Of a stretch of 64,000 nucleotides of DNA, positions 1,492 through 30,830 are shown one piece after another (position 1 is the stretch's first letter; each line of letters opens with the position of its first letter). The translations under genes and the position numbers were made by a program. The DNA is from Thiomicrorhabdus sediminis (lineage in GTDB: Bacteria > Pseudomonadota > Gammaproteobacteria > Thiomicrospirales > Thiomicrospiraceae): positions 1,317,630-1,381,629 of the forward strand of contig NZ_CP040602.1 of NCBI RefSeq assembly GCF_005885815.1, given 5' to 3'. Below the pieces are notes generated by a model. It saw only the letters and a list, made by a program, of their open reading frames with translations. It was not told the origin of the DNA and did no database searches.

Positions 1492-2013
1492 ATGTTTCAA
1501 CTAGAAAATATTGATGCCGTTGAATATCGTAAGAAAACACGCCAGGCAACCATTAAAATCATGGCACTGTTTATCGTTATCGGTTTTATTACCGCAACCC
1601 TAGCGGTTGAATGGTTTGGCGCATACTCCAATAACAAATTGGTATTGAACTTTATCGGCGCCTTTATCGGTTTGATGATTACCGCAATGATTGTCAAAAC
1701 GTTTTTTGCCGATAAGGCATGGATGAAAGAAGCCATCTATTCTTGGCGACTAAAACGCCATTTGATGATGATCACCAATAAAATCAGACCGATTCAAGAA
1801 GCCGCTCAACACAACGACAGTAATGCATTGAAAGTGATGCGTTTTTATCATCTCGGGTTACAGCAGATGCATAAGCTTGAAGACAACAATGCCGCCTTGC
1901 TGGATATCAAAGCTGAAATAAAAGAGCTGGAAGACAAAATCAATGAACTGGGCTTAGAGGCGAATCAAGACCACTTCGATCCTAGCTGGATTGAATCCTA
2001 TCACAATCACTAA
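1492..2013 (+). CDS. DUF3087 family membrane protein
   Basis: A 173-residue protein with two hydrophobic segments near the N-terminus (residues ~21-43 and ~52-70), followed by a cytoplasmic helical part with a predicted coiled coil (residues ~130-160, rich in E, K, L and D). The order, two TM helices then a WRLK-containing helix and a FYHLGLQQ helix, matches what I know of DUF3087, a gammaproteobacterial family without known function. The stop codon overlaps the stop of the convergent EAL gene by 4 bases. Identification of the family is fairly sure; no function is claimed. Confidence 0.75.
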   Translation: MFQLENIDAVEYRKKTRQATIKIMALFIVIGFITATLAVEWFGAYSNNKLVLNFIGAFIGLMITAMIVKTFFADKAWMKEAIYSWRLKRHLMMITNKIRPIQEAAQHNDSNALKVMRFYHLGLQQMHKLEDNNAALLDIKAEIKELEDKINELGLEANQDHFDPSWIESYHNH

Positions 2014-3215
2014 ACGGAGATCTGCACCGTTTGTGTGGATTTATCGTGATAGTAGACATCGTAGCAGGCAACATAGCGCTTGCTGTCAGTGGTTTCAATA
2101 ACTCGCGTAACGGTCAGGCAAAGCTCGACATCAATTAACGAACGGTAAGGGCTTGAAACCCAGATCCTACTTGTATTTTCCATCGCCTTGACAAAGTAGC
2201 GACGATTTTTCCAACATAACCCCTTACCCTGCTTTAATACCGTATTTTCCACATCGGCGTTATCAAGCGCATACTCTTCACTGACCTGATAACCTTCTTC
2301 ATCCAGAATGAAAAAGCGTTTTACAAACGACATATTGGAGATCTGCAACATCTCTTGTTCTAAATGAGCTTCATTACTTAATTGGTAAAGCGGCTCAAAC
2401 AGCGCCTCATAACCTTTGCGCTGAATAGTTTCGACAAATTGGCGCTCATCCAGATAAGCTGGATAATGATTGGTGATATCGACCAAGCGGCGTTCACCCT
2501 GAGTGACATGTTCAAAACTGAACTCCGGCTTGGCAAAATAAAAACCTTGCACCAGATCTACCCCGACATCCATCGCTAACAGCGCTTGCTCTTTTGTTTC
2601 AATGCCTTCTAGCAAGGCGATACTGCCTGATTGCTGTATCAATCGCGTTAAATTTCTCAAAATACTTTGGCTGCGCACACTTTTGCTGGCTTCAAGCAAT
2701 ACCTGACGATCCAGCTTTACGATATCCGGCTGCGCCTTCCAGATCCGGTCAACATTGGAGTGACCGGCACCGAAATCGTCTAGTGCAATCATACAACCCA
2801 TTTTACGAATACGATAAATAAGCTCTTCAAATAGCTTTTCGTCCTTAATCTCGTTTTCTACGACTTCAACAACAATATGACGACCATTTACCTTGAGTTT
2901 TTTAACAATCGTATCAAGACACAGGTCTTCCATCTTATCGACCGAATCGAAATCGAGGTTAATAAAAATCCAGATATCATCGGTTTTTAGATCATTCCAG
3001 TTCTGCAGATGAAGCGAGTTGATAGCACGGATAAATTCGGTTTTACTGAGCCCTTCAGGAGCCTGAAGACAGTCATAGACATTAAGCGGTTCTTGAGTAC
3101 TTTTATTGACACCACGAATCAGAGCTTCTACACCGATACAAGCCTGATTGGGAAAACTGTATATTGGTTGAAAAGCTGAAAACAGCTGCTTATCACCAAA
3201 TTCGACAATATTCAT
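2010..3215 (-). CDS. EAL-domain cyclic-di-GMP phosphodiesterase with unclassified C-terminal domain
   Basis: Residues ~10-245 form an EAL domain that should hydrolyse c-di-GMP to pGpG. The motif VEALIRG, an N in FINLDFD, EVVENE, ALDDFGAGHSN, KLDR and LLEGIET are present, so the metal and catalytic residues look intact. Residues ~265-400 form a mixed alpha/beta domain with segments such as FFILDEEGYQVSEE and RIWVSSPYRS that recall PDC/cache or YkuI-C-type sensor folds; I cannot name it. The frame extends upstream to a GTG at 3266, but the ATG at 3215 has an AGGAG just before it and the GTG has no clear Shine-Dalgarno. The gene sits 55-105 bases downstream of a terminator-like leader hairpin, downstream of an ANTAR regulator. 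Confidence 0.88.
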   Translation of the reverse strand: MNIVEFGDKQLFSAFQPIYSFPNQACIGVEALIRGVNKSTQEPLNVYDCLQAPEGLSKTEFIRAINSLHLQNWNDLKTDDIWIFINLDFDSVDKMEDLCLDTIVKKLKVNGRHIVVEVVENEIKDEKLFEELIYRIRKMGCMIALDDFGAGHSNVDRIWKAQPDIVKLDRQVLLEASKSVRSQSILRNLTRLIQQSGSIALLEGIETKEQALLAMDVGVDLVQGFYFAKPEFSFEHVTQGERRLVDITNHYPAYLDERQFVETIQRKGYEALFEPLYQLSNEAHLEQEMLQISNMSFVKRFFILDEEGYQVSEEYALDNADVENTVLKQGKGLCWKNRRYFVKAMENTSRIWVSSPYRSLIDVELCLTVTRVIETTDSKRYVACYDVYYHDKSTQTVQISV

Positions 3216-3312: not shown

Positions 3313-3373
3313 AAAAAAAACGCTCATAGTTATCACAATGTATTTTTGTGAACCCTATGAGCGCAACACTCCA
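3313..3373 (-). promoter_or_regulatory. Attenuator-type leader with strong terminator before the EAL gene (putative ANTAR target)
   Basis: On the minus strand, arms CGCTCATAG and CTATGAGCG (3355-3363 and 3321-3329) enclose a second paired segment (TCACAA/TTGTGA). They are followed by T8 (3313-3320), a textbook intrinsic terminator, only 55-105 bases before the EAL start. Just upstream, the block TGGAGTGTTGCGCTCATAG (3355-3373) can pair GAGTG with CGCTC, which would remove the 5' arm of the terminator. A near-identical block precedes the nrtA terminator at 28922-28941. ANTAR proteins work by such antitermination. I could not identify the paired AnnGnn hexaloops described for known ANTAR targets, so the regulator assignment is inference. 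It may also simply terminate the upstream ANTAR gene. Confidence 0.62.
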
Positions 3374-3424
3374 TTAACCAGCAATTTTCACAAACTATTT
3401 AACCATTAAAATACCAACTTATTT

Positions 3425-3533: not shown

Positions 3534-4133
3534 TTACTCCACCCCACCTTGTGCCAACCCGGTCAAAACTCCGCACACCTCATGAGAAACCATAGAGATA
3601 CGCTTACCCTGATCCATCGCCATTTTCCGCAAAGTCTTATAAGCATCATCTTCAGTCATTGATTTTTGCTGCATCAATAACCCCTTGGCCTTTTCGATAA
3701 CCGCCCTCTCGGAGAGCTTATCCTTAACAAGCGCCAACTCCTTTTTTACCGCCAAGCACTCTTTAAAACGCAGCATGGCAACATCGACAATCGGCTTAAT
3801 ACGTTCCGGAGACTTACCATCGACAATATAGGCTGTGACACCTGCCTTGACGGATTTTTCAATTAATCGAGAATCCGGGTCCGCACTGAAACAGACTACC
3901 GGCTTTGGACAGTAATCACGTACTAGAGAAATCTGCTCAAAAAGCTCAAAGGAAGGTTTAGCGACATCAAGAACAATCAAATCGGATTGCTCTCTATCAA
4001 GCTGTTGCAGAAAGTTGCTTGCCACATCACAACTACTGATTGAAGAAGCGCCGGATTGCTTTAACCCATTTTCAAAAATAGCGCTATTAGATAAATCATC
4101 ACTGATTAACAAAACAGAAAAAGGCCGTTTCAT
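3534..4133 (-). CDS. ANTAR-domain response regulator (NasT/AmiR type RNA-binding antiterminator)
   Basis: About 199 residues. An N-terminal receiver-like domain (residues ~4-115, with VLLISDD and LIVLDVAKP) is followed by a short coiled coil. A C-terminal ANTAR domain (~130-190) contains VIEKAKGLLMQQKSMTEDDA, the signature of the RNA-binding three-helix bundle. ANTAR proteins bind nascent leader RNA and prevent termination. The frame opens at 4166, but the ATG at 4133 has an AGGGTG upstream and starts directly at the receiver. This is a paralogue of the NasT encoded at 30234. No NasS-like partner lies beside it, so its input is unknown. The receiver keeps an Asp at the usual place, so phosphorylation is possible. 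A likely target is the leader in front of the downstream EAL gene. Confidence 0.9.
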   Translation of the reverse strand: MKRPFSVLLISDDLSNSAIFENGLKQSGASSISSCDVASNFLQQLDREQSDLIVLDVAKPSFELFEQISLVRDYCPKPVVCFSADPDSRLIEKSVKAGVTAYIVDGKSPERIKPIVDVAMLRFKECLAVKKELALVKDKLSERAVIEKAKGLLMQQKSMTEDDAYKTLRKMAMDQGKRISMVSHEVCGVLTGLAQGGVE

Positions 4134-4308
4134 CGTTTTTTCACCCTTGAAATAGAACAACTTCAAGCAATTAACGAATTCTAGGCCATCAACACAATTT
4201 TATTAATTAACAATAATTTAGATAAAAAAGTCGTTTTCAACAAACGTAAATCAATACACCTTAGCACCAATAAGGACTCTATTCGTACAAAATTAGGGCA
4301 ACACTAGC

Positions 4309-5526
4309 TTAAGGCAATTTTTTGCTGATATCCGCAAGATGAGACTGATACCAACTCACCACTTCTGACTCAGCCAAAGGCTGACTGACCAAATAGCCTT
4401 GACAAATATCGCAACCCAATTCTGCAAGATAACTCCAATCTCGGAAGCTCTCAACCCCTTCAGCAACGACTCTGACCCCAATCTTGCGACACATTCCTAT
4501 TGTGCTTTCAACGGCTGCTTGCAGGTATGGATGATTGGAAACACCTTTCACTAAAGATTGATCAAGTTTCAGTTCGCTAAATGGAATTTGCGTGAGACGG
4601 TTTAAAGAAGACTCGCCAATTCCATAATCATCTAAAGACAACTGAAAACCTGCCAATTTCATATTATTCAAAACCGCCAATGCTTTGGAAATATCCTGAA
4701 TCACCTCGGTCTCGGTGACTTCAAAAGTAATTTGCTTGGCCGTGGCGTTATAGATAGCCATACGTTGTTGAAGTTTTTTAAAGAAATCAACATCATTAAA
4801 GCTTTTAGAAGATAAATTGATGGCGACCTTAGTCTTCAAACCTTGTTCTCGCCATTGTGCCACCAGCCTAGAGGCTTGCTCAACCATATCCAAAGTGACT
4901 TCATCGATCAAATCGTGATATATCAGCGAAGGTACAAAATCGCCCGGGAAAATTTCACCATATTCGGGGTGCTGCCATCGCAACAACGCCTCAAAACCGA
5001 CCAAGCTGTAATCGGAAAAACGGATTTTGGGTTGAAAGGATAGATGAAACTCGCAATGTTCCAAAGCTGCTTGCAGCTCACCCCTTGTGATACGGCTTTT
5101 TTTTAAATGATGTCCGCTACGGATAACATGAATATCTTTACGCTGAAATCGGTGCAAGACATCAAGCAATTCGCTTTCACCGAAAGGTTTGGTAAACGCA
5201 CCCAAGGTGTAAAAACCAGAACTTTCGGCCATCAACTCCACACCTTTAATTAGGCTCAGTTCTCGACCGCTGATGATCACCAAGCCAAATTCACGTTTGT
5301 CTTCTGCGACCGCATTAATAAAGTCGATACCATTCATCACCGGCAACTCAAGGTCGCATAAAACCAAATCGATGATTTGATGGGTATTAACGGCCTGCAA
5401 AGCCTGCATGCCATCTTCGGCAGATAAAATCCGTGGAATGCCAACATGACGACACAACTCCTCAAGCATTAATCGTTGTGACTTGCTGTCTTCTACAATT
5501 AGTACGGTTTGTACGTCATTTATCAT
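4309..5526 (-). CDS. REC-EAL response regulator, c-di-GMP phosphodiesterase (copy 1)
   Basis: 405 residues. The N-terminal receiver (~6-125) has the acidic pair (VEDSKSQR), the phospho-acceptor Asp in LVLCDLELPVMNG and the Lys of TKPF. The C-terminal EAL domain (~150-395) has FEALLRW, AINLSS, FEVTETEV, LDDYGIGESS, KLDQ and VAEGVES, so it should be an active phosphodiesterase controlled by phosphorylation, like RocR/PvrR proteins. It follows a close paralogue with 39 bases between them, so the two are probably co-transcribed and arose by tandem duplication. The DDFG motif reads DDYG here and DDFG in the sister copy. No histidine kinase gene is adjacent. Confidence 0.93.
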   Translation of the reverse strand: MINDVQTVLIVEDSKSQRLMLEELCRHVGIPRILSAEDGMQALQAVNTHQIIDLVLCDLELPVMNGIDFINAVAEDKREFGLVIISGRELSLIKGVELMAESSGFYTLGAFTKPFGESELLDVLHRFQRKDIHVIRSGHHLKKSRITRGELQAALEHCEFHLSFQPKIRFSDYSLVGFEALLRWQHPEYGEIFPGDFVPSLIYHDLIDEVTLDMVEQASRLVAQWREQGLKTKVAINLSSKSFNDVDFFKKLQQRMAIYNATAKQITFEVTETEVIQDISKALAVLNNMKLAGFQLSLDDYGIGESSLNRLTQIPFSELKLDQSLVKGVSNHPYLQAAVESTIGMCRKIGVRVVAEGVESFRDWSYLAELGCDICQGYLVSQPLAESEVVSWYQSHLADISKKLP

Positions 5527-5565
5527 GCTTTAATTCCATTGCTGTAAAGCAAAAAACGGTGCTGT

Positions 5566-6816
5566 TTAGGCTACGGTACTCTGCTCCACTTTTTTTAGCA
5601 TCGTGCTGGCATTAGCGATATTGGTCATGTGAGATTGATGCCATTCAAGCACGGCCTCCTCAGGCATCGGTCGACCGACCAAGAAGCCTTGACAGATATC
5701 ACAACCGTAAGCACACAACCAAGACCAGTCGCGGAACTCCTCAACACCTTCAGCGACAACCTTTATCGACATTTTACGACACATACTGATCATGCTTTCG
5801 ACAGCGGCCTGCAATGACGGTTGCTTGGCGATACCATTGATCAATGAGCGGTCGAGTTTCAGTTCGCTAAACGGGATTTGAGTTAAACGGTTTAGTGACG
5901 ATTCACCGGTGCCAAAATCATCCAACGCCAAATCAAAACCGGATAACTTCAAGTTATTCAAAATGGACAATGCCATTGTCATATCCTTAATGACCTCGGT
6001 TTCTGTGACCTCAAATGACACCTGATTACTCAAAATTCCATATTTATCAATACCTTCACAGATCTTCTTGGCGAAACTGGCGTCGTGGAAACTCCGCGAT
6101 GACAGATTAATGGCGACGTTTGTTTGCAAACCGACTTGATTCCATTTTGCTAAGGATTTTGCCACCGCTTCGACAATCCATAAGGTTACTTCATCGATCA
6201 AATCAAAACGTACCAGCGCTGGCACGAAATCCGCCGGTGAAACCATTCCCCAAACAGGATGATTCCAACGAAGCAGGGCTTCAAAACCGACTAACTTATA
6301 GTCATCAAAACGAATTTTCGGTTGAAAATGTAAACAAAACTCATCTTTGGCGATAGCTTTTTGCAAGTCGCTTTCACTCAAACAATCTTGCTTTGAATTC
6401 CTAGCGCCTGGCTGGATCTTGATGGCACCCGGCTTGAAATCGGCAATCACCGTATCCAGATTCTCTTTTACAAACGGCTTGGCAAAAGCGCCTAAAGTGC
6501 TAATTCCGGCACTTTGAGCCATCAATTCAACGCCTTTGATCAAGTTCAGCTCTCGGCTGCTCATTACCACTAAACCAAATGAGCGTTTATGCTCTGGAAT
6601 GGCATTAATGAAATCGATACCATTCATGACAGGCATTTCCAGATCGCACAAAACGATATCTATATTGTTATGCTGCTCAATCAATTCAAGGGCGTGCTCA
6701 CCATGCTCGGCACACAATATTTTGCTTACACCCGATTCAAGACAAATCATCTCTAAAAAGTCTCGTTGACTTTTACTGTCCTCGATAATAAGGATACAAG
6801 AAACTTCGTTGCTCAC
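5566..6816 (-). CDS. REC-EAL response regulator, c-di-GMP phosphodiesterase (copy 2)
   Basis: 416 residues, the first gene of the REC-EAL pair. The receiver (~8-125) keeps IEDSKSQR, IVLCDLEMPVMNG and AKPF. The EAL domain (~150-400) keeps FEALLRW, AINLSS, FEVTETEV, LDDFGTGESS, KLDR and VAEGVEE. Nearly every motif is shared in sequence and spacing with the gene at 4309, which shows a tandem duplication. The C-terminus is about 11 residues longer than the sister copy. A TATAAT-type promoter lies ~120 bases upstream. The partner kinase is not in the window, unless the histidine kinase at 37003 acts on it in trans, for which there is no direct evidence. Confidence 0.93.
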   Translation of the reverse strand: MSNEVSCILIIEDSKSQRDFLEMICLESGVSKILCAEHGEHALELIEQHNNIDIVLCDLEMPVMNGIDFINAIPEHKRSFGLVVMSSRELNLIKGVELMAQSAGISTLGAFAKPFVKENLDTVIADFKPGAIKIQPGARNSKQDCLSESDLQKAIAKDEFCLHFQPKIRFDDYKLVGFEALLRWNHPVWGMVSPADFVPALVRFDLIDEVTLWIVEAVAKSLAKWNQVGLQTNVAINLSSRSFHDASFAKKICEGIDKYGILSNQVSFEVTETEVIKDMTMALSILNNLKLSGFDLALDDFGTGESSLNRLTQIPFSELKLDRSLINGIAKQPSLQAAVESMISMCRKMSIKVVAEGVEEFRDWSWLCAYGCDICQGFLVGRPMPEEAVLEWHQSHMTNIANASTMLKKVEQSTVA

Positions 6817-19028: not shown

Positions 19029-19088
19029 CACAGTTATTCACTAATGCGATCCGACAACAGATCATTTAACTCAATTTTAATCACCAAT

Positions 19089-19105
19089 TAGCATCCTGTG
19101 TGCCA
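19089..19105 (-). promoter_or_regulatory. Sigma-54 promoter of the nitrate/nitrite operon
   Basis: On the minus strand the bases read TGGCACACAGGATGCTA. This is a TGGCAC-N5-ATGC match to the sigma-54 consensus TGGCAC-N5-TTGC, with GG (-24) and GC (-12) at the exact required spacing. Transcription would start near 19080, ~95 bases before the flavoprotein ATG. This fits nitrogen-limitation control through NtrC. Two TCGCACCAATT repeats ~85-120 bases upstream may be activator sites. Confidence 0.78.
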
Positions 19106-19189
19106 ACACACATAACCCAATGTTTTAATAGCATATATCTAAAAAAACCGCGCAAAAGGCTTGATTCAAGCCGCACAACAAAAGCAGTT

Positions 19190-22734: not shown

Positions 22735-25353
22735 TTAACCGACTAACAGCAGCGGTTCTTCGATGCCATCAAGTAAATGCTCGTTCAACTTTAATAAAGC
22801 TTCATCCAGACGCAGAATCAAATCGACAAACTCATCCAGAACAAGGTCTTTCTGCTTTAATAAGCCGATACTTTTAGAATCGCCGGACGCCATTAAATTA
22901 AAGGCTTTTTCTACCGTTTCATGCACCTGTATATGCAAGCCGCACACTTGACTATAAACTTGATCTTGTTCAATCTCCGGACAGGCCTGCTTTAATTGCT
23001 GCAAAAACAGACCTAACTGACTCTTTTGCGGATAAATGGCTTGCGCCATATCCAGATCGGTTGCAATACCGTTCAAATAGGTTTGCACACTACTGCGCCA
23101 AACTCTCAGGTTCTGGCGGATATCAGACATTTTAAAGCCCAGATGATTAGCTCTTTGATCAATTAATTCCTTAGCCTTGAGCTCATCGATAATAAACTTA
23201 TCGGTCTGGTCGCCAAGCAGTTGCGCCTGCTCTCGTAAAGAATCCGCCGCCGCGCTGGATGCCTTGACCAATAGGGTATTACTTTGGATATTACTATCTA
23301 TCTTGGCGACCGCATTGGCAACCTCGGTAACCGAATGTTGCTGCTGTTCAATCGAACCTAACACCTTATCCATCGCCTGACCAATATTCTGCACCCGTTC
23401 TCCGACCGCATCAAAAGCCACTTGGGTTTCATGCACCTTGGTCACCCCTTGCTGAACCTTGTCTACCGAGGCTTCGATCAATTTACGGATATCATGCGAC
23501 GCATCGGCCGATTTCTGAGCCAAAGAACGCACCTCCGAGGCGACCACGGCAAAACCACGACCATGCTCACCGGCTCGCGCCGCTTCAACCGCCGCATTCA
23601 ATGCCAATAAGTTGGTTTGAAAAGCGATACCGTCAATCAAACTGATGATATTGGCTATTTTTTCCGATGTCTGCTCAATCTCTTCAATGGTGGCAATGGT
23701 TTCGTTCAGAGTCTGCTTGGCGCGCTGGCTTTCGGTTTCCGCCTGCTGTGTGGACTCGGTCACCTTGACCAGTTCTTGGGTGTTTTCGCGTTGCATCTGG
23801 CTCATATTCTGCATCGAAGCATTGACCTGCTCTAAAGTCGCTGCCGCCTGCTGCGTACGCACCGAAAGATCTTGCGAAGCATTAACCGATTCCTGCGCAG
23901 CCAAATTAACCTGTTCACCAGCGTGTTTGATATACAAGATAATCGAACTCAAATTATCCAAAGAGACATTGGTGGCAACCTTCATCGCAGCCAATGAACC
24001 CTGCAAATTTTTATCGACTCGACCACGGATATCCCCCACGGCTAACTGCGTCATGACAAAGACCATATTCTCAATGATCATATTCAACTCAGCTAGTAGC
24101 GAATTGATATTGTTGGAGGTATCCAGATAAAAGCCCGATAATCCCTGGGTATCGATACTTAAATCGGTATGGCCGCTTGAAGCCATTTCCAAGGTTAATT
24201 TTAAGTTACGTTCAATACTACGCTGCTGGGTCAAATCCGACCACTCGATCACCGAACCGATAGCTTCACCATCAACCCCGATAACCGGAATCACATTCAA
24301 ACTTAACTTCAGCCCTGAAACATTCAATTCACTTTGTTTGCTTTGCGATAAATCGGCAAAAAATTCATCCTCACAAATTTTGCCAACAGATTGTCCCACC
24401 ATGTTATTCACATCACCGCTAAAAGCAGAACTCTTCTGTTGAAAAACCGACTTTTTATCCTTAAAGAAACGCTGCATATTATCATTTAAATAAAGGATAT
24501 TCCGGTAACGGTCAACCAGCATGATATTAGTGGAAGCGCTATCCAAAGCGGACTTCAATCGCATAGAACTATTGAGTTTCTGTTGCGAGTCATCATAGAT
24601 CGCCCCCAATTGCACCTGCATCATCTTCACCGCGGAAACCAGCTTGCTCAAGGAGTGATTGCCATAAAAATTGACCTGCCCGCTAAAGTCGCCTTCACGC
24701 ATCTTATCGATCAGCAACTTGGCTTTACCCAGTCGGTTGAAAACATACCTTTTTCCCGCCATCGCATAAAACAGAAAACCTACCGATATCAATGCCACCG
24801 ACCATACCGGCAAGCTGATCAAACCGGCTTGTATAGCCGTTGCCAAAGTGCCAATAAAAGCAATCATTAGCAACATAAGGTTAATCGGGTGATAGCGGTT
24901 AAACAAACAAAGCTTATCCAATACACCGACTGTATAACCACTTTTGAGGGACTTGCTATTTTGCTTCAATTCACTATAAAGCCGTTCGGCCGATTCAATC
25001 TGCTCAGGTTGCAATGCGCTGCGCACCGATAGATAACCGATGACCTTGGAAGATTCAATCAGCGGGGTCATATTGTCCTGCACCCAATAAAAACTACCGT
25101 CCTGACAACGGTATTTGATCGGTTGCACCCAGGGACGGCCGCTTTTTAATGTTGACCACATGTCATCAATCACCATGGGTGGCACATCCTCATGCAGCAG
25201 CTCATGATGTTCACGTCCCAGCAATTGTGATTTTTGATAACCGCTCGCTAAACAAAAAGCCTCGTTTAGCTCAAAAATCTTTCCGTCCAAGTCGGTCTTG
25301 GAAACCATAGCGCCTAAATGACCGACATTTTTACCCAACTTCTCGTTTTGCAT
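22735..25353 (-). CDS. Methyl-accepting chemotaxis protein with PAS domains (Aer-like)
   Basis: 872 residues. An N-terminal PAS (~15-120, with [14 protein letters not shown]-like pattern and [10 protein letters not shown]) precedes two closely spaced TM helices (~157-200). A HAMP-like region, a second PAS (~265-385) and another linker follow. The signalling domain (~475-735) has the conserved hairpin tip [20 protein letters not shown]. There is no periplasmic domain, so it should sense something cytoplasmic or the redox state. A ~130-residue C-terminal extension has W, Cys and HxxxH positions that recall a CZB zinc domain, but the first His is missing. It sits between nrtC and the phosphatase-kinase gene, so a nitrate or energy-taxis role is possible but unproven. 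Confidence 0.92.
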
Positions 25354-25410
25354 AGCATTCCTTTACACATGCACTGCCGTGAATTCACGAATTAGATTAT
25401 TGACAAACAC

Positions 25411-25434
25411 AAATGGCGAGCCCTGCTCGCCATT
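25411..25434 (-). terminator. Hairpin after nrtC, probable operon terminator
   Basis: A perfect 10-bp stem AAATGGCGAG/CTCGCCATTT with a short loop lies 46-69 bases past the nrtC stop, followed on the minus strand by a T-rich but interrupted tail. It is also in the 5' region of the MCP gene. Confidence 0.65.
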
Positions 25435-25479
25435 TGGTCCCTCTTCGGTTCAAAAACCGTTGTAAGCGCAAAGCTTTTC

Positions 25480-26274
25480 TTAATGCTCCACCTTGCGTTG
25501 CTTTTCATACAAGAAACGTAGCACTTCAGAGCGATAATGGTTGTAGGTAGGGTCATCGGCCAAGGCCAAACGATCACGCGGGTGAGGTAAATCAACCTTT
25601 AGAATCTCACCGATTGTCGCCGCCGGACCATTCGTCATCATCACAATTCGATCGGACAGCAACACCGCTTCGTCAACATCGTGGGTAATCATAATGACGG
25701 TGTTATTCAAATCCTTTTGAATCTCCATCAATGAATCCTGCAAATGCGCTCGGGTTAAGGCATCCAGAGCACCAAACGGCTCGTCCATCAGCATGATTTT
25801 TGGCTGCATCGACAAGGCGCGGGCAATCCCGACTCGCTGCTTCATTCCGCCGGAGATTTCATCCGGGCGCTTGTGCATGGCATGATCCATATGCACCAAC
25901 TTCAAATTATGTTCGATCCAATCCTTTTTCTCGGCCGGGCTTTTCGTGTTTTTAAACACCTGATCCACCGCCAGCTCGACATTTTCATAAGCCGAAAGCC
26001 AAGGTAAAAGTGAATGGTTCTGGAAAACCACCGCTCTTTCCGGTCCCGGTGAATTCACTTCACGACCATCCAGCAAAACCCCGCCTTCGGAGGCCTCATA
26101 AAGACCGGCAACAATATTCAGTACCGTTGACTTACCGCAACCTGAATGACCGATCAGCGAGATGAACTCACCTTGTTCAATCTTTAAATTGATATCTCTA
26201 AGCGCTCTAAAAGGCCCTTTCGGTGTTGGAAACTCAATCCCAACATCCGTTAACTCTAAATGTACTTCTGACAT
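25480..26274 (-). CDS. nrtC: Nitrate ABC transporter ATP-binding protein (NrtC/NrtD type)
   Basis: 264 residues, a single ABC ATPase. It has Walker A GHSGCGKST (~42-50), Q-loop (VVFQNHSLLPWL), signature ISGGMKQRVGIARAL, Walker B IMLMDEPFGALD and the switch His in ITHDVDEA. It lacks the substrate-binding-like domain that cyanobacterial NrtC carries at its C-terminus, so it is of the NrtD/NasD length. It powers nitrate uptake with NrtA and NrtB, and is the last gene of nrtABC, 23 bases after nrtB. Members of this family also transport cyanate, taurine or bicarbonate; the adjacent NrtA and NasST settle on nitrate. Confidence 0.93.
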   Translation of the reverse strand: MSEVHLELTDVGIEFPTPKGPFRALRDINLKIEQGEFISLIGHSGCGKSTVLNIVAGLYEASEGGVLLDGREVNSPGPERAVVFQNHSLLPWLSAYENVELAVDQVFKNTKSPAEKKDWIEHNLKLVHMDHAMHKRPDEISGGMKQRVGIARALSMQPKIMLMDEPFGALDALTRAHLQDSLMEIQKDLNNTVIMITHDVDEAVLLSDRIVMMTNGPAATIGEILKVDLPHPRDRLALADDPTYNHYRSEVLRFLYEKQRKVEH

Positions 26275-26297: not shown

Positions 26298-27305
26298 TTA
26301 GCGGATATCCGCCGACTTATCCCATGAAACCGCTTTTTGAAGCACTAACATGCCGCGATCTAAGAAGAACCCCACAATACCGATAACAATTACGGCCGCC
26401 ATAATGCGTCCCAGAGAATCCGAACTGCCATTTTGGAACTCATCCCACACAAACTTACCTAAACCAGGATTCTGAGCCAACATTTCCGCGGCGATCAATA
26501 CCATCCAGGCAATACCCAAAGAGATACGCAGACCAGTGAACATCATCGGAATCGAGCATGGCAAAACAATCTTGCGAACATGTGTCCACCAGCTTAGGCT
26601 CAATACCTGACTGACGTTTTTCAAGTCTTGGGTAACGGTCGCGACACCGGCAGCCGTGTTAATAATGGTTGGCCACAAACAGCACAGCAACACGGTAAAC
26701 ATTGAGTTCAAGAACGCCTTATCAAACATCGGATCGTCGGTGACATACATCGCAGAAACCACCATGGTTACCAAAGGCAGCCATGCCAAAGGTGAGACCG
26801 GTTTAAATACCTGAATCAAAGGGTTTACTGCGGCATAGGCGTTGCTGCTCAGGCCGATAACAATACCGATTGGAATCGCGATAATCGACGCTAGAATGAA
26901 ACCACTCATGACCGTAATCAAACTGCGACCGATCTGGTCAAAAAATGTTGGCGGCCCAGTGTATTCACGTACACGTGGTTCATAATCCGGATCTTTAGCC
27001 ACGCGTGCCGCATTTCGCTCTTCCTGACGCTGATAAAACTCTTGTTCTTTTAGAGCCTCGGCGTCTGCCTCTTCACTTAAGGCTTGGAACTGCTCATAAG
27101 TTTGAACCGGTCCAGGAAATTGCCCTAGAGAGGTCTGAATATTTGATGCGGCACCCTGCCACAACAATAAGAAAATTAGGATACCGGCCAAAGGCAGGCC
27201 GACCATTTTGACAATGGTATTGATCTGACCTTTACGGTCTTCACCAATGATCAATTTATAGAAGGGCTCAATAATTGCCCACTTTAAAGGGTTCATAAAC
27301 TTCAC
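26298..27305 (-). CDS. nrtB: Nitrate ABC transporter permease NrtB
   Basis: 335 residues with an N-terminal TM helix (~32-50), a long hydrophilic loop with a repeated charged stretch (~65-115), and then the BPD-type permease core (~135-325). The EAA-like loop GIAWMVLIAAEMLAQNPGLG is the contact site for the ATPase. The hydrophilic insertion after TM1 is typical for NrtB. It forms the membrane channel for nitrate supplied by NrtA. The gap to nrtA (64 bases) contains a hairpin. Confidence 0.94.
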   Translation of the reverse strand: MKFMNPLKWAIIEPFYKLIIGEDRKGQINTIVKMVGLPLAGILIFLLLWQGAASNIQTSLGQFPGPVQTYEQFQALSEEADAEALKEQEFYQRQEERNAARVAKDPDYEPRVREYTGPPTFFDQIGRSLITVMSGFILASIIAIPIGIVIGLSSNAYAAVNPLIQVFKPVSPLAWLPLVTMVVSAMYVTDDPMFDKAFLNSMFTVLLCCLWPTIINTAAGVATVTQDLKNVSQVLSLSWWTHVRKIVLPCSIPMMFTGLRISLGIAWMVLIAAEMLAQNPGLGKFVWDEFQNGSSDSLGRIMAAVIVIGIVGFFLDRGMLVLQKAVSWDKSADIR

Positions 27306-27369: not shown

Positions 27370-28773
27370 TTAAAGCTTTGTTTCACCTTTTAAACCGATC
27401 TTCATGCTATCGATATACTCATTTGGTTTTGAGCCGTCATAAGGGATGCCATCCATAAAGTCATCCTGGACACCACGGTAACCATCGGTGTTATAAACTT
27501 CGGCAAAGTCTTCTTTCTTGAAAACACCGTCAGCAACCAACTCAGCCACGGCTTTTTTATAAATATCCGGACGGTATACTTTCGCTGCCATATCCTTATA
27601 CCAAGCATCTGGTTTATGTTCTGAGATCTGCCCCCAACGACGCATCTGAGTCATATACCAAATGGCATCCGAGTAATATGGATAGGTTGCGTTATAACGG
27701 AAGAACACATTGAAATCAGGCTCAGAACGCTTGTCGCCTTTTTCATACTCAAAGGTACCGGTCATAGAGTTGGCGATAACCTTGTAGTCGGCCCCTACAT
27801 AGTTAGGTTGCGACAAGATCTTTACCGCTTCCGGACGGTTTTTGTTGTTTTCAGCATCCAACCAATGCGCGGCACGGATCATCGCTTTAACAATGCGGAT
27901 AGTGGTGTTTGGATACTTTTCATAGAAGTCTTCTCTTAGACCGAAGACTTTTTCCGGATTGTTTTTCTGGATGGAGTTATCAGAGATAACCGGTACACCG
28001 ATACCTTTGAATACCGCTTGCTGGTTCCAAGGCTCACCAACACAATATCCTTCGATTGTGCCCGCTTCCATAGTTGCCGGCATCTGTGGCGGAGGCGTTA
28101 CCGACAGCAGGACATCCGCATCCAAAGTACCGGAGCTATCACCTTTATGAGGCGCATAGTACCCCGGATTCAGACCACCAGCTGCCAACCAATAACGTAA
28201 TTCATAGTTGTGGGTTGATACCGGGAAAACCATCCCCATTTTGAACGGCTTACCCGCATCTTTGTAAGACTCGACTACCGGCTTTAACGCCGCAGCGCTG
28301 ATCGGATGTTTCGGTTTATCACCATCCATCTCAACATGAGATTTCATCGCTTCCCAAGTTTTATTGGAGACGGTAATGGCGTTACCGTTTAAATCCATTG
28401 AAATTGGTGTAATAACATCGGCCTTGGTACCGTAACCGATAGTTGCCGCGATTGGCTGTCCCGCCAACATATGCGCACCATCAAGCTGCCCATCGATAAC
28501 TCGATCCAACAAAACCTTCCAGTTGGCCTGCGCTTCTAACTGAACATATAATCCTTCGTCTTCGAAATAACCTTTTTCATAGGCGACAGCCAAAGGTGCC
28601 ATATCGGTCAGTTTGATAAAACCGAATTTCAAGTCTTCTTTTTCCGGATACCCCAGCTTATCGGCGGCATTTGCAAGGGGGGCATATTGTGCAATAGACA
28701 AAGATATCGCCGTGGCAACAGCCGCAGCCGTTTTCTTAAGAAATGATCTTCTCGCTATAGTGTTAGGCTTCAT
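27370..28773 (-). CDS. nrtA: Nitrate ABC transporter substrate-binding protein NrtA
   Basis: 467 residues. The N-terminus has a twin-arginine signal peptide: [20 protein letters not shown] with a hydrophobic core and probable cleavage after PLANA. The mature part matches NrtA/NasF, with [22 protein letters not shown], the [15 protein letters not shown] segment, [20 protein letters not shown] and [10 protein letters not shown]. It binds nitrate in the periplasm. Translation starts at an ATG preceded by AAAGGAAA. Transcription must pass the attenuator at 28879-28941, ~105 bases upstream. Its paralogue without a signal peptide (NasS) is encoded immediately upstream. Confidence 0.96.
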
Positions 28774-28878
28774 GGTATTTTCCTTTTACATAACTAATGG
28801 ATTCTGGTTTGATTAGACGCCTTTGCCTATACACAACACTCTTTGTTGAGTTAATCGAGCCTATGGAGTTAAAAAATC

Positions 28879-28941
28879 AAAAAAAAACGCCCGCAGCACC
28901 CATGGTTTTGCAACCAAGGCACTACGAGCGTCCACACTCCA
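28879..28941 (-). promoter_or_regulatory. Attenuator in the nrtA leader (putative NasT/ANTAR target)
   Basis: On the minus strand a long imperfect stem runs from CGCTCGTAG (28922-28930) to GCTGCGGGCG (28888-28897) with a TGGTT-GCAA-AACCA tip and a run of nine T, so transcription should stop before nrtA. Directly upstream TGGAGTGTGGACGCTCGTAG (28922-28941) allows GAGTG to pair with CGCTC, freeing the terminator. The same block occurs before the EAL gene (3355-3373). It lies between nasS and nrtA. NasT-type proteins relieve such terminators in other bacteria when nitrate is sensed by NasS. The AnnGnn hexaloops reported for known sites were not found by eye. Confidence 0.72.
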
Positions 28942-28956
28942 ATAAAACTTTGCTAT

Positions 28957-28985
28957 ATACTAAGGATAAATCGTACCAATAACAA
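28957..28985 (-). promoter_or_regulatory. Putative sigma-70 promoter of nrtABC
   Basis: On the minus strand, TTGTTA (28980-28985) and TAGTAT (28957-28962) are spaced by 17 bases. A transcript starting near 28950 would begin just before the attenuator. No sigma-54 site with correct GG/GC spacing was found here. Confidence 0.45.
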
Positions 28986-29066: not shown

Positions 29067-30227
29067 CTATTTTTGCACCAAAATAAAACTATCTTCGCCC
29101 ATTTCTATCTCATCAAGCATCCATGGTACGGCATGCACGCCCTCTTGCTTATAATTCACACTGGGCAATTTCACCCCGTGATTTTGCAAAACCTGGCGAT
29201 AAAAATCCGTTAAATAAACAGACTCGGCCAACTGCTTAATATCCACCTCATCACCAATCTGTTTCCAGCGCTGCATTTGCGACAATATCCACTGTGCATG
29301 CGATTGCCACGGAAAGTTTGCCTGATACTTAAACGGCAAAGAGAAATTCGGAATCTTACGACAACTTGAACAGCTTGGATTGCACACCTCACCATTAATG
29401 GCATTATTAATCGATTCATGCGGCGCGCAGACATACTCCTCCGCAGCCAGATAATCACTTAATAACTGATGGTTTTCGCTTTTATCTATCCACTCACTGG
29501 CCCGATATAAAGCAACAATCATCTTTTCATGAATATCACTATGCGCATCCGCCCAATCCTTTCTGAGCGCCAACACCTTTTCCGGAGCATTGTTCCAAAT
29601 CTCATAACCGGTAATCAAAGTTACCCCCACCTGCTCTTTTACGGCGTGAGTATTCCATGGTTCTCCGACACAATAGGCATCAATCAAATCTTCTTGCAAT
29701 GCTTTCACCATACTCGGAGGCGGCACAACGGTAATATGCACATCTTTGTCCGGATCAATACCGGCTTCGGACAACCAATAACGCAACAGATAATTATGCA
29801 TCGAAAAAGGAAACACCACCGCAAACCTTAAAGGCGGCTGACCATTCTGCTTACGTGACTCTATTACCTTTTTAAGCACTGCAGCACTTTTTTCCGGCTT
29901 TAACACCAATTGAGATTCATACTCGCTCATCTGTCCATAAAGCGCATTTGAAACACTGACCGCATTACCATTTAAACCGAATGAATAAGCGGTGACCAAC
30001 GGTTTTTTAACCCCACCAATACCCAAGGTTGATGCCATCAACATCGGCGCCAACATATGCGCCGCATCGTATTGGCCAAACACCAACTTATCGCGGATAT
30101 TCGACCAAGATACTTCACGGTGCAAAACCACATCCAAACCTTGCTCGGCAAAAAAACCCTGCTCCTTGGCAACAATCAAAGGCGCGCAATCGTTTAATGG
30201 TATAAAACCAATATTTATTTTCTGCAT
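29067..30227 (-). CDS. nasS: Nitrate sensor NasS (NrtA-like, cytoplasmic)
   Basis: 386 residues, closely similar to NrtA across the binding domain. It has INIGFIPLNDCAPLIVAKEQ, FGQYDAAHMLAPML, PPPSMVKALQEDLIDAYCVG and GEPWNTHAV, but no signal peptide, so it stays in the cytoplasm. In known systems NasS holds NasT inactive and releases it when nitrate binds. The gene is 6 bases after nasT and upstream of the nrtA attenuator, the expected arrangement. A cluster of three Cys near residues ~277-286 (CNPSCSSC) is visible. Alternative: a cytosolic CynR-like binding protein; the ANTAR partner makes NasS by far the best call. Confidence 0.93.
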   Translation of the reverse strand: MQKINIGFIPLNDCAPLIVAKEQGFFAEQGLDVVLHREVSWSNIRDKLVFGQYDAAHMLAPMLMASTLGIGGVKKPLVTAYSFGLNGNAVSVSNALYGQMSEYESQLVLKPEKSAAVLKKVIESRKQNGQPPLRFAVVFPFSMHNYLLRYWLSEAGIDPDKDVHITVVPPPSMVKALQEDLIDAYCVGEPWNTHAVKEQVGVTLITGYEIWNNAPEKVLALRKDWADAHSDIHEKMIVALYRASEWIDKSENHQLLSDYLAAEEYVCAPHESINNAINGEVCNPSCSSCRKIPNFSLPFKYQANFPWQSHAQWILSQMQRWKQIGDEVDIKQLAESVYLTDFYRQVLQNHGVKLPSVNYKQEGVHAVPWMLDEIEMGEDSFILVQK

Positions 30228-30233
30228 CTCTTT

Positions 30234-30821
30234 CTACTCCAGCACGCTGATAATTGTTTCGGCCACTTCATATAGCTTCTGATTACTGTCCATTGACCTT
30301 TTACGGATCGCTTCAAACGCCTCTTGCTCGCTAACACCTTTTTGCTGCATCAATAAACGCTTGGCCTTATCTATCAACTTGTTCTGCTCCAATTCGGACT
30401 TGGTTTTGATCAACTCGGTCTTTAATGCCTGATACTCTCGAAATCGAGCAATGGCGACATTCATAATGGATTTGACGCGCTTCATATCAACGCCCTTCAC
30501 CACATAACCACTGACTCCTGAACGGATCGCCTCATTGATCACATTCTCATCATCGGCATCGGCAAACATCACAACAGGCATCGGGTTATGCTCACTTAAC
30601 AGATACATGCTTTCCAAAATATCTCGATCCGGCGACTCGGTATCGACAACAATCATATCCGGCATACAAGCAGCCACCCGAGCTAATAACCCTGGACCTG
30701 GTTCAACGCGATCAATCACCTCATAACCATGATCAAGCAACGCCTGAGATAGAATAGCGGCACGCCCGGCATCCTTATCCACCAGCATCACCTTAATCAT
30801 TTCATGCTTTAATTTACTCAT
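30234..30821 (-). CDS. nasT: Nitrate-responsive antiterminator NasT (ANTAR)
   Basis: About 195 residues. A receiver-like domain (~10-120; VMLVDKDAG, MIVVDTESPDRD) is followed by a coiled coil and an ANTAR domain (~140-190; LIDKAKRLLMQQKGVSEQEA). It should bind leader RNA and prevent termination once NasS has released it. The frame can be read from a TTG at 30830 and the next ATG is at 30821; neither has a good Shine-Dalgarno, and a further ATG at 30800 starts at the domain, so the start is uncertain by ~10 codons. It is co-transcribed with nasS (6-base gap) and is a paralogue of the ANTAR protein at 3534. Confidence 0.92.
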   Translation of the reverse strand: MSKLKHEMIKVMLVDKDAGRAAILSQALLDHGYEVIDRVEPGPGLLARVAACMPDMIVVDTESPDRDILESMYLLSEHNPMPVVMFADADDENVINEAIRSGVSGYVVKGVDMKRVKSIMNVAIARFREYQALKTELIKTKSELEQNKLIDKAKRLLMQQKGVSEQEAFEAIRKRSMDSNQKLYEVAETIISVLE

Positions 30822-30830
30822 TAGCGCCAA

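Follow-up and report, generated by a model that had tools for sequence, protein, structure and literature searches.

The closest described counterparts of the locus reported here are the NasS-NasT antitermination systems of Paracoccus, Bradyrhizobium, Azotobacter, and Pseudomonas. In Paracoccus, nasT-nasS immediately precedes a leader whose hairpins are presumed terminators, and the nitrate genes follow; NasT is reported to bind that leader, and its release from NasS to depend on nitrate (PMC5424462, PMC3795266). In Bradyrhizobium, NasT hairpins precede several nitrogen genes (PMC6759348). The nasF and eut ANTAR leaders, for which NasR and EutV are the cognate proteins, carry two hairpins (P1 and P2), whose six-base loops have A at position 1 (A1) and G at position 4 (G4), and P1 is reported to be essential (PMC3369931, PMC3369936, PMC8934654). 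The wording "single hexaloop" was found together with ANTAR in PMC8934654 alone among the papers searched. No paper linking ANTAR antitermination leaders to EAL genes was found among those searched, and EAL, GGDEF, c-di-GMP, and chemotaxis go unmentioned in the main text of a paper on actinobacterial ANTAR RNAs (PMC8164766). A lowering of c-di-GMP through nitrate sensing has been published, but by a different route (PMC5524735).

The window, that is, the whole stretch of DNA analyzed here, comprises 64,000 nt of the forward strand of Thiomicrorhabdus sediminis (GCF_005885815.1, NZ_CP040602.1, positions 1,317,630-1,381,629), a sulfur bacterium whose genome of 2,373,486 bases is a single contig. 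It resembles the NasS-NasT systems in having nasT-nasS, a leader with hairpins, and nitrate genes, with an ANTAR gene and an NMT1-like sensor gene upstream of the latter (Table 1). In contrast to those systems, there is a single upstream hairpin, a sigma54-like site is close to it, and control probably extends to an EAL gene and a receptor gene. A Pfam ANTAR search of the whole genome returned two genes only, one upstream of each of the two leaders considered below. The first-pass annotation had put an ANTAR gene beside each leader; both leaders do lie downstream of one, but nasS sits between nasT and the nrtA leader. The second ANTAR gene, a NasT paralogue adjoining the EAL gene, is labeled ANTE in this study. 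The stretch from 7.4 to 30.8 kb of the window can be read as a single nitrate cluster with molybdenum cofactor genes, cysG, nasA, nirD, nirB, narK, nrtABC, nasS, nasT, and a few others, most of them named by reading; therefore, ANTE and the EAL gene are at its edge. The distance of 25 kb that had been given between the two loci is about right, with the refinement that both belong to one cluster of nitrate-assimilation genes and are close to its opposite ends. A match of 132 bits to PF00563 was obtained for the EAL protein. Two adjacent response regulator-EAL genes are also located beside ANTE (4309-6816, minus strand; the second by reading only), which makes three EAL genes around ANTE.

Table 1. 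Positions of the leader elements, promoter-like sites, and genes in the window.
Feature	Position	Strand	Remarks
nrtA leader antiterminator hairpin P2, GAGT[GTGGAC]GCTC	28926..28939	-	six-base loop, G1, G4; fits relatives' GAGY[NNNGNN]GCTC
nrtA leader intrinsic terminator	28879..28933	-	5' arm overlaps the 3' arm of P2 and the end of its loop
EAL leader antiterminator hairpin, GAGT[GTTGC]GCTC	3359..3371	-	five-base loop; G at positions 1 and 4
EAL leader intrinsic terminator	3313..3364	-	overlaps hairpin
sigma54-like site, nrtA leader	28959..28982	-	about 26 bases from hairpin; GG-N10-CC, poor -12 part; rank 7 of 127,954; score reached by 34 of 5000 shuffles
sigma54-like site, EAL leader	3397..3420	-	GG-N10-GT, about 31 bases from hairpin; rank 15 of 127,954; score reached by 127 of 5000 shuffles
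sigma54-like site before ANTE	4169..4192	-	GG-N10-GT; rank 2 of 127,954
sigma54-like site before nirB operon	19086-19109	-	rank 6; no attenuator found there
nrtA, nitrate ABC transporter substrate-binding protein	27370..28773	-	name by context
nrtB	26298-27305		
nrtC, nitrate ABC transporter ATP-binding protein	25480..26274	-	TIGR01184 above cut-off
chemoreceptor (PAS and MCPsignal)	22735..25353	-	directly behind nrtC; genome's best match to receptor following EAL in G022
nasS-like nitrate sensor (NMT1_2)	29067..30227	-	name by context
nasT-like ANTAR response regulator	30234..30830	-	name by context
EAL-domain gene, c-di-GMP phosphodiesterase family	2010..3215	-	probable ATG at 3215 behind GAGGAG
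ANTE, second ANTAR response regulator	3534..4133	-	NasT paralogue next to EAL

The near-repeat that had drawn attention to these leaders was reproduced: the minus-strand blocks at 28922-28941 (before nrtA) and 3355-3373 (before EAL) are identical in 17 of 20 columns, with one gap. As had also been noted, the 3' half of each block is the 5' arm of a strong terminator, with about −32 kcal/mol for nrtA and −20 to −22 kcal/mol for EAL, and GAGTG can pair with CGCTC via one G-U pair (−5.5 and −4.4 kcal/mol, respectively, for the hairpin alone). A post hoc pattern, GGAGTGTNN{0,2}CGCTCNTAG, matched exactly twice in the window, at the two blocks, and never in 100 dinucleotide shuffles. The looser GGAGTG-N2-6-CGCTC gave three matches in the genome (both blocks and one inside a long open frame) and two in a backward-read control; therefore, the short core by itself is not rare. 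An alternative fold of this kind is possible without protein, and GAGTG/CGCTC might be an RNA-only switch that responds to some other ligand or to pausing of the polymerase. However, the hairpin (−4 to −6 kcal/mol) is far weaker than the terminator (−20 to −32 kcal/mol) and therefore needs help, and six-base G4 loops and ANTAR neighbors point to a protein. We regard a protein-free switch as very improbable.

In both leaders, the 3' arm of the hairpin serves as the 5' arm of the terminator, and the nrtA leader has a six-base loop with G4 (GTGGAC). These are the features reported for P2 in NasR-nasF and EutV-eut (PMC3369931, PMC3369936, PMC8934654). The differences are that P1 is absent here, that position 1 is A or G, and that the loop of the EAL leader has five bases. 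The EAL leader thus departs from the six-base A1/G4 pattern in loop length and at position 1, where both window loops carry G instead of A. When the window was scanned strictly for terminators bearing a G4 loop of six bases, only the nrtA leader was returned. When the hairpins were folded alone, RNAfold closed G1-C6 in nrtA, leaving a four-base loop, and closed the EAL loop to three bases.

Relatives were picked by their ANTAR genes. The search covered 62 family genomes, including that of the window, and gave an ANTAR match in 41; 52 stretches around these ANTAR genes were mapped against eight window proteins. In 17 aligned relatives, the block before nrtA aligns with GAGY[NNNGNN]GCTC overlapping a terminator, and the 3' arm is again the terminator's 5' arm. 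Loop position 1 is A in 28, G in 19, and T in one of 48 tabulated elements (window nrtA included), in which G4 is partly a result of selection because the search patterns demanded it. No five-base loop occurs among the 48 other tabulated elements, which were partly chosen by the six-base pattern. The four-pair stem of P2 is well conserved in pairing: in 23 distinct hairpins, 98.9% of the cells are paired, compared with at most 56.5% in slid versions, and seven cells are changed on both sides, for example from GAGT/GCTC to GGAC/GTCC. Three of five measures (paired share, both-side changes, and covariation score) are above all 500 shuffles, and the other two are within them (pairs with both-side changes, reached in 74 of 500; pair types, reached in 500 of 500). 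The element of G031 (L074) has three pairs only. A search of Rfam at the gathering threshold gave three tRNAs and no match to either leader. Given the alignment and the compensatory changes, the nrtA leader is very probably a NasT-type ANTAR attenuator. The antiterminator choice that had been proposed for both leaders thus has direct family evidence at nrtA, with an ANTAR-type hairpin overlapping the terminator.

The consensus of sigma54 promoters is GG-N10-GC at −24/−12. The motif found upstream in the family, TTGG-N10-[GT][CT], resembles such promoters, and the promoters of both window leaders are predicted to be of this type. The rank of a site in the window is no proof of a promoter by itself, because the top-ranked site lies inside a coding frame. 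The motif was trained on 32 elements with the GG site chosen 18-41 bases from the hairpin; therefore, the spacing in these elements is partly by construction. With 15-99 bases allowed, the best site is 20-30 bases before the hairpin in 35 of 37 GAGY-type elements (window nrtA included), some of whose loci are close relatives of one another; the exceptions are L122 (54 bases) and L123 (37 bases). In the five GAGY-type elements outside the training set (L061, L068, L083, L089, and window nrtA), the site is at 22-26 bases. Among the leaders of the GGAC or GGAT type, the six other than the dual-hexaloop leaders described below have a site 36-87 bases up, without P1 next to P2.

None of the 37 GAGY-type elements has a P1 hexaloop between the promoter site and P2. 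A hexaloop lies 41-45 bases upstream in three of them, beyond the predicted promoter, and the rest have none within 60 bases. In the window nrtA leader, no A1/G4 or G1/G4 hexaloop with at least four pairs is present in the 60 bases upstream. The dual-hexaloop nrtA leaders of the same bacterial family (L051, L085, L086, and L100) have the same overlap of P2 with the terminator before nrtA. They differ in that a P1 hexaloop (A1, G4) stands beside P2 and the promoter-like site is 44-54 rather than 20-30 bases up. Past the nrtA terminator of the window, at 28814-28846 (minus strand), the sequence could form two further hairpins, acaa[AGAGTG]ttgt and taggc[AAAGGC]gtcta, each with A1 and G4 in a loop of six bases, and a similarly placed hairpin with a conserved GTCT arm is found in L056, L057, L066, and L070. 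The downstream hairpins in the window are a possible second ANTAR site. Scanning beyond the terminator was possible in 29 nrtA leaders (four of 33 rows offered no T-run as a start); six of these, including one weak case, had a downstream hexaloop that could replace P1, and thus it is not general as a substitute for P1.

The EAL leader was assessed with two covariance models that contain no window sequence. R1 was built from the nrtA leaders of 17 relatives, and R2 from 37 matches in the relatives' loci, some of which are one place held in two loci. In the genome of the window, R1 gave two matches up to E 10, one of 50.5 bits (E 6.2e-5) at the nrtA leader and one of 29.2 bits (E 0.24) at the EAL leader. 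R2 likewise ranked the nrtA leader first (49.4 bits, E 1.5e-5) and the EAL leader second (30.8 bits, E 0.044), about 10 bits above the next match (20.1 bits, E 4.4), which was followed by one of 18.3 bits (E 9.5). Scoring was confined in these searches to the best 150 out of 700 or 930 first-look candidates, and the E-values are rough. No further leader, for example before nirB or narK, had an E-value below 4 with either model among the 150 scored candidates. The score of the EAL leader alone is no proof, because of these limits and because a match in G047 with E 0.007 looks false. That match (L172) has no matching hairpin, and the frame downstream of it resembles an unrelated housekeeping gene. 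The rank, the strand, and the place between an ANTAR gene and its neighbor add to the score.

These data bear on an alternative in which the nrtA leader is a genuine NasT attenuator, whereas the EAL hairpin acts as an ordinary terminator at the end of the ANTE transcript and resembles the nrtA block by chance. The five-base loop and model E-values of 0.044-0.24 per genome agree with that explanation, as does the finding that other ANTE-EAL gaps have different terminators or none. On the other hand, the EAL leader is second best in 2.37 Mb, 10 bits above the next candidate, and on the right strand; it lies between one of only two ANTAR genes and its neighbor; and its promoter-like site is near the usual spacing (31 versus 20-30 bases). 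We therefore judge an ordinary terminator to be unlikely. In our preferred reading, the EAL leader is probably a derived, working member of the ANTAR-attenuator group; it stands second in the genome by models free of window sequence, even though its loop is one base short and both window loops lack A1.

A close relative of the EAL protein (E below 1e-120) is encoded in 16 of the 62 genomes, the window's being the sixteenth, and the gene follows ANTE in 12 of those 16. The first-pass annotation had named a lack of conservation of the shared block in orthologous loci as a refuting outcome, and at EAL the block was indeed not conserved. All 12 relatives with the ANTE-EAL gene pair lack it in the gap between the two genes, both with default filters and with the filters off, although the same model under default filters does find the EAL copy of the window. 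The notion of an EAL element conserved across ANTE-EAL loci was accordingly rejected. Four of these 12 gaps hold another terminator, as judged by eye. The nitrate genes and the EAL gene are joined in other ways. In G061, the EAL gene is right behind nrtC and is followed by the receptor gene; in G022, it is behind nrtC and one open frame of about 300 codons, again followed by the receptor gene. In both genomes, nrtABC, EAL, and the receptor gene are co-directional, and the EAL gene of G022 is split between two frames. In G012, the receptor gene follows EAL, and ANTE was not seen beside EAL. In all, the receptor gene follows EAL in eight of 16 genomes (five ANTE-EAL genomes, G061, G022, and G012), and ANTE precedes nasT-nasS-nrtA in six genomes. 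When the G022 receptor was used as the query, the chemoreceptor behind nrtC in the window scored 964 bits and the next best protein of its genome 368. A long, strong hairpin without a T-run is present in the nrtC-chemoreceptor gap (25410-25436, minus strand) and might limit read-through.

Leaders of this type are found before other genes of the family. R1 had matches in 20 of the 62 genomes (E up to 0.05) and R2 in 21 of the same 62 at 44 places (E up to 0.01), both counts including the window genome, whose EAL copy is not among the matches at these thresholds. Because an order-wide R2 search gave the same 62 genomes, the sampling is that of the family only. Four of the 44 places were left out of inspection (G029:C11:203897, G030:C1:1719580, G013:C9:49797, and G008:C1:1627872). 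Matches precede a formate/nitrite transporter (L124-L127 and L131), nirD-nasA or nasA (L122, L123, L129, L130, L132, L159, and L161), a NarK-type transporter (L128; 308 bits against a cut-off of 312), a probable siroheme synthase (L133), and a flavoprotein reductase (L160). Of these genes, the ones at L127, L128, L133, L160, and, as L162, L123 were checked by family scans; the other gene names were read from translations.

In G007, G008, and G013, R1 matches of 53.8, 43.1, and 44.7 bits, respectively, precede a receptor-like gene adjoining nasT, with the hairpin GAGT[AAAGAC]GCTC. The product of this gene is 49-51% identical to the window receptor over the available stretch, and the one that was scanned shows the PAS part only. 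The receptor gene of G031 has a weak match before it, with GAC[AGAGAC]GTC (20-21 bits, E 0.1-0.4). An R1 or R2 match is also present before nasT itself in G007, G008, and G013 (L056, L057, and L066), which could mean self-control of the regulator. The proposed regulon of nitrate uptake and c-di-GMP turnover therefore stands in part: relatives again connect nitrate ANTAR leaders with EAL or receptor genes, in other arrangements, but the EAL element itself is missing from the 12 orthologous loci.

The ANTAR proteins were compared with the RNA contacts of EutV. ANTE keeps R142, K149, E160, Y164, R168, and M172 of EutV in all 24 sequences compared, a set restricted to matches longer than 150 residues, and R142, K149, E160, and Y164 are the G4-contacting residues of EutV (PMC8934654). 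ANTE lacks K143 (A or G there) and R175 (G there); R175 is one of three residues whose joint change abolished EutV binding (PMC8934654). The window NasT keeps K143, K147, K149, E160, R168, and M172 and differs with N142, F164, D173, N175, and K177 (EutV numbering). In six relatives' loci (L061, L068, L083, L089, L090, and L091), NasT has His at Tyr164 and a residue other than Arg at Arg168, while the ANTE sequences keep both residues. Four of these six (L061, L068, L083, and L089) are from G022, G061, G041, and G034, in which the nrtA leader has the hairpin without a long T-run.

The contact residues also bear on the possibility that the EAL leader is of ANTAR descent but has decayed, the lost loop base having abolished binding and left a constitutive terminator. 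Its loop, GTTG-C, resembles GTTGAA, GTTGAT, or GTTGAG of relatives minus one base, and Met172 has been proposed to keep smaller loops from binding to EutV (PMC8934654). However, the terminator and the hairpin both still have intact stems, although decay need not have spared them, and the neighboring ANTE keeps most RNA contacts. Decay is thus quite unlikely in our view, and a functional derived member remains the preferred reading.

Overall, we consider it probable, with considerable reservation, that the two leaders work as ANTAR antitermination switches within a single nitrate regulon. This is because of the relatives' leaders, the P2 stem changes, the rank with R1 and R2, the ANTAR gene upstream of each leader, the nrtA-type promoter site at EAL, the leaders before nitrate genes and before receptor genes, the co-directional nrtABC, EAL, and receptor genes of G061 and G022, and the contact residues of ANTE. 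The reading is weakened by the five-base loop of EAL, its weak E-values, its absence from all 12 orthologous gaps, G1, the lack of P1, the missing long T-runs at the nrtA leader hairpins of G022 and G061, the split EAL gene of G022, and the lack of K143 and R175 in ANTE. In the proposed mechanism, the nascent leader would fold by default into the terminator, and transcription would stop before the gene. Nitrate would free NasT from NasS, as is known in Paracoccus. An ANTAR protein would then grip the GAGT-loop-GCTC hairpin by G4 and hold back the 5' arm of the terminator, and RNA polymerase would read on into nrtABC or, if the EAL leader does switch, into EAL. The leader would be compact, consisting of a sigma54-like promoter, a single hairpin, and a terminator, without an upstream P1. 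The EAL copy would be a derived member read by NasT, by ANTE, or by both; the sequence cannot tell which of the two proteins reads which leader.

The 37 one-hairpin GAGY-type leaders would lend themselves to testing whether ANTAR antitermination can work with one hexaloop, which would conflict with reports that nasF and eut require both P1 and P2. The two similar switches hint at cell behavior tied to nitrate supply, as the EAL enzyme is expected to break down a signaling molecule. A broader and tentative possibility, which we think doubtful, is that a nitrate-released ANTAR system in the Thiomicrorhabdus/Hydrogenovibrio relatives runs a compact, single-hairpin, sigma54-type regulon over nitrate uptake and reduction, a c-di-GMP phosphodiesterase, and its partner chemoreceptor, wired differently in each species; in the window, ANTE would read the five-base-loop variant before the phosphodiesterase gene. 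If this is true, RNA antitermination would place both c-di-GMP turnover and chemoreception under the control of nitrate supply.
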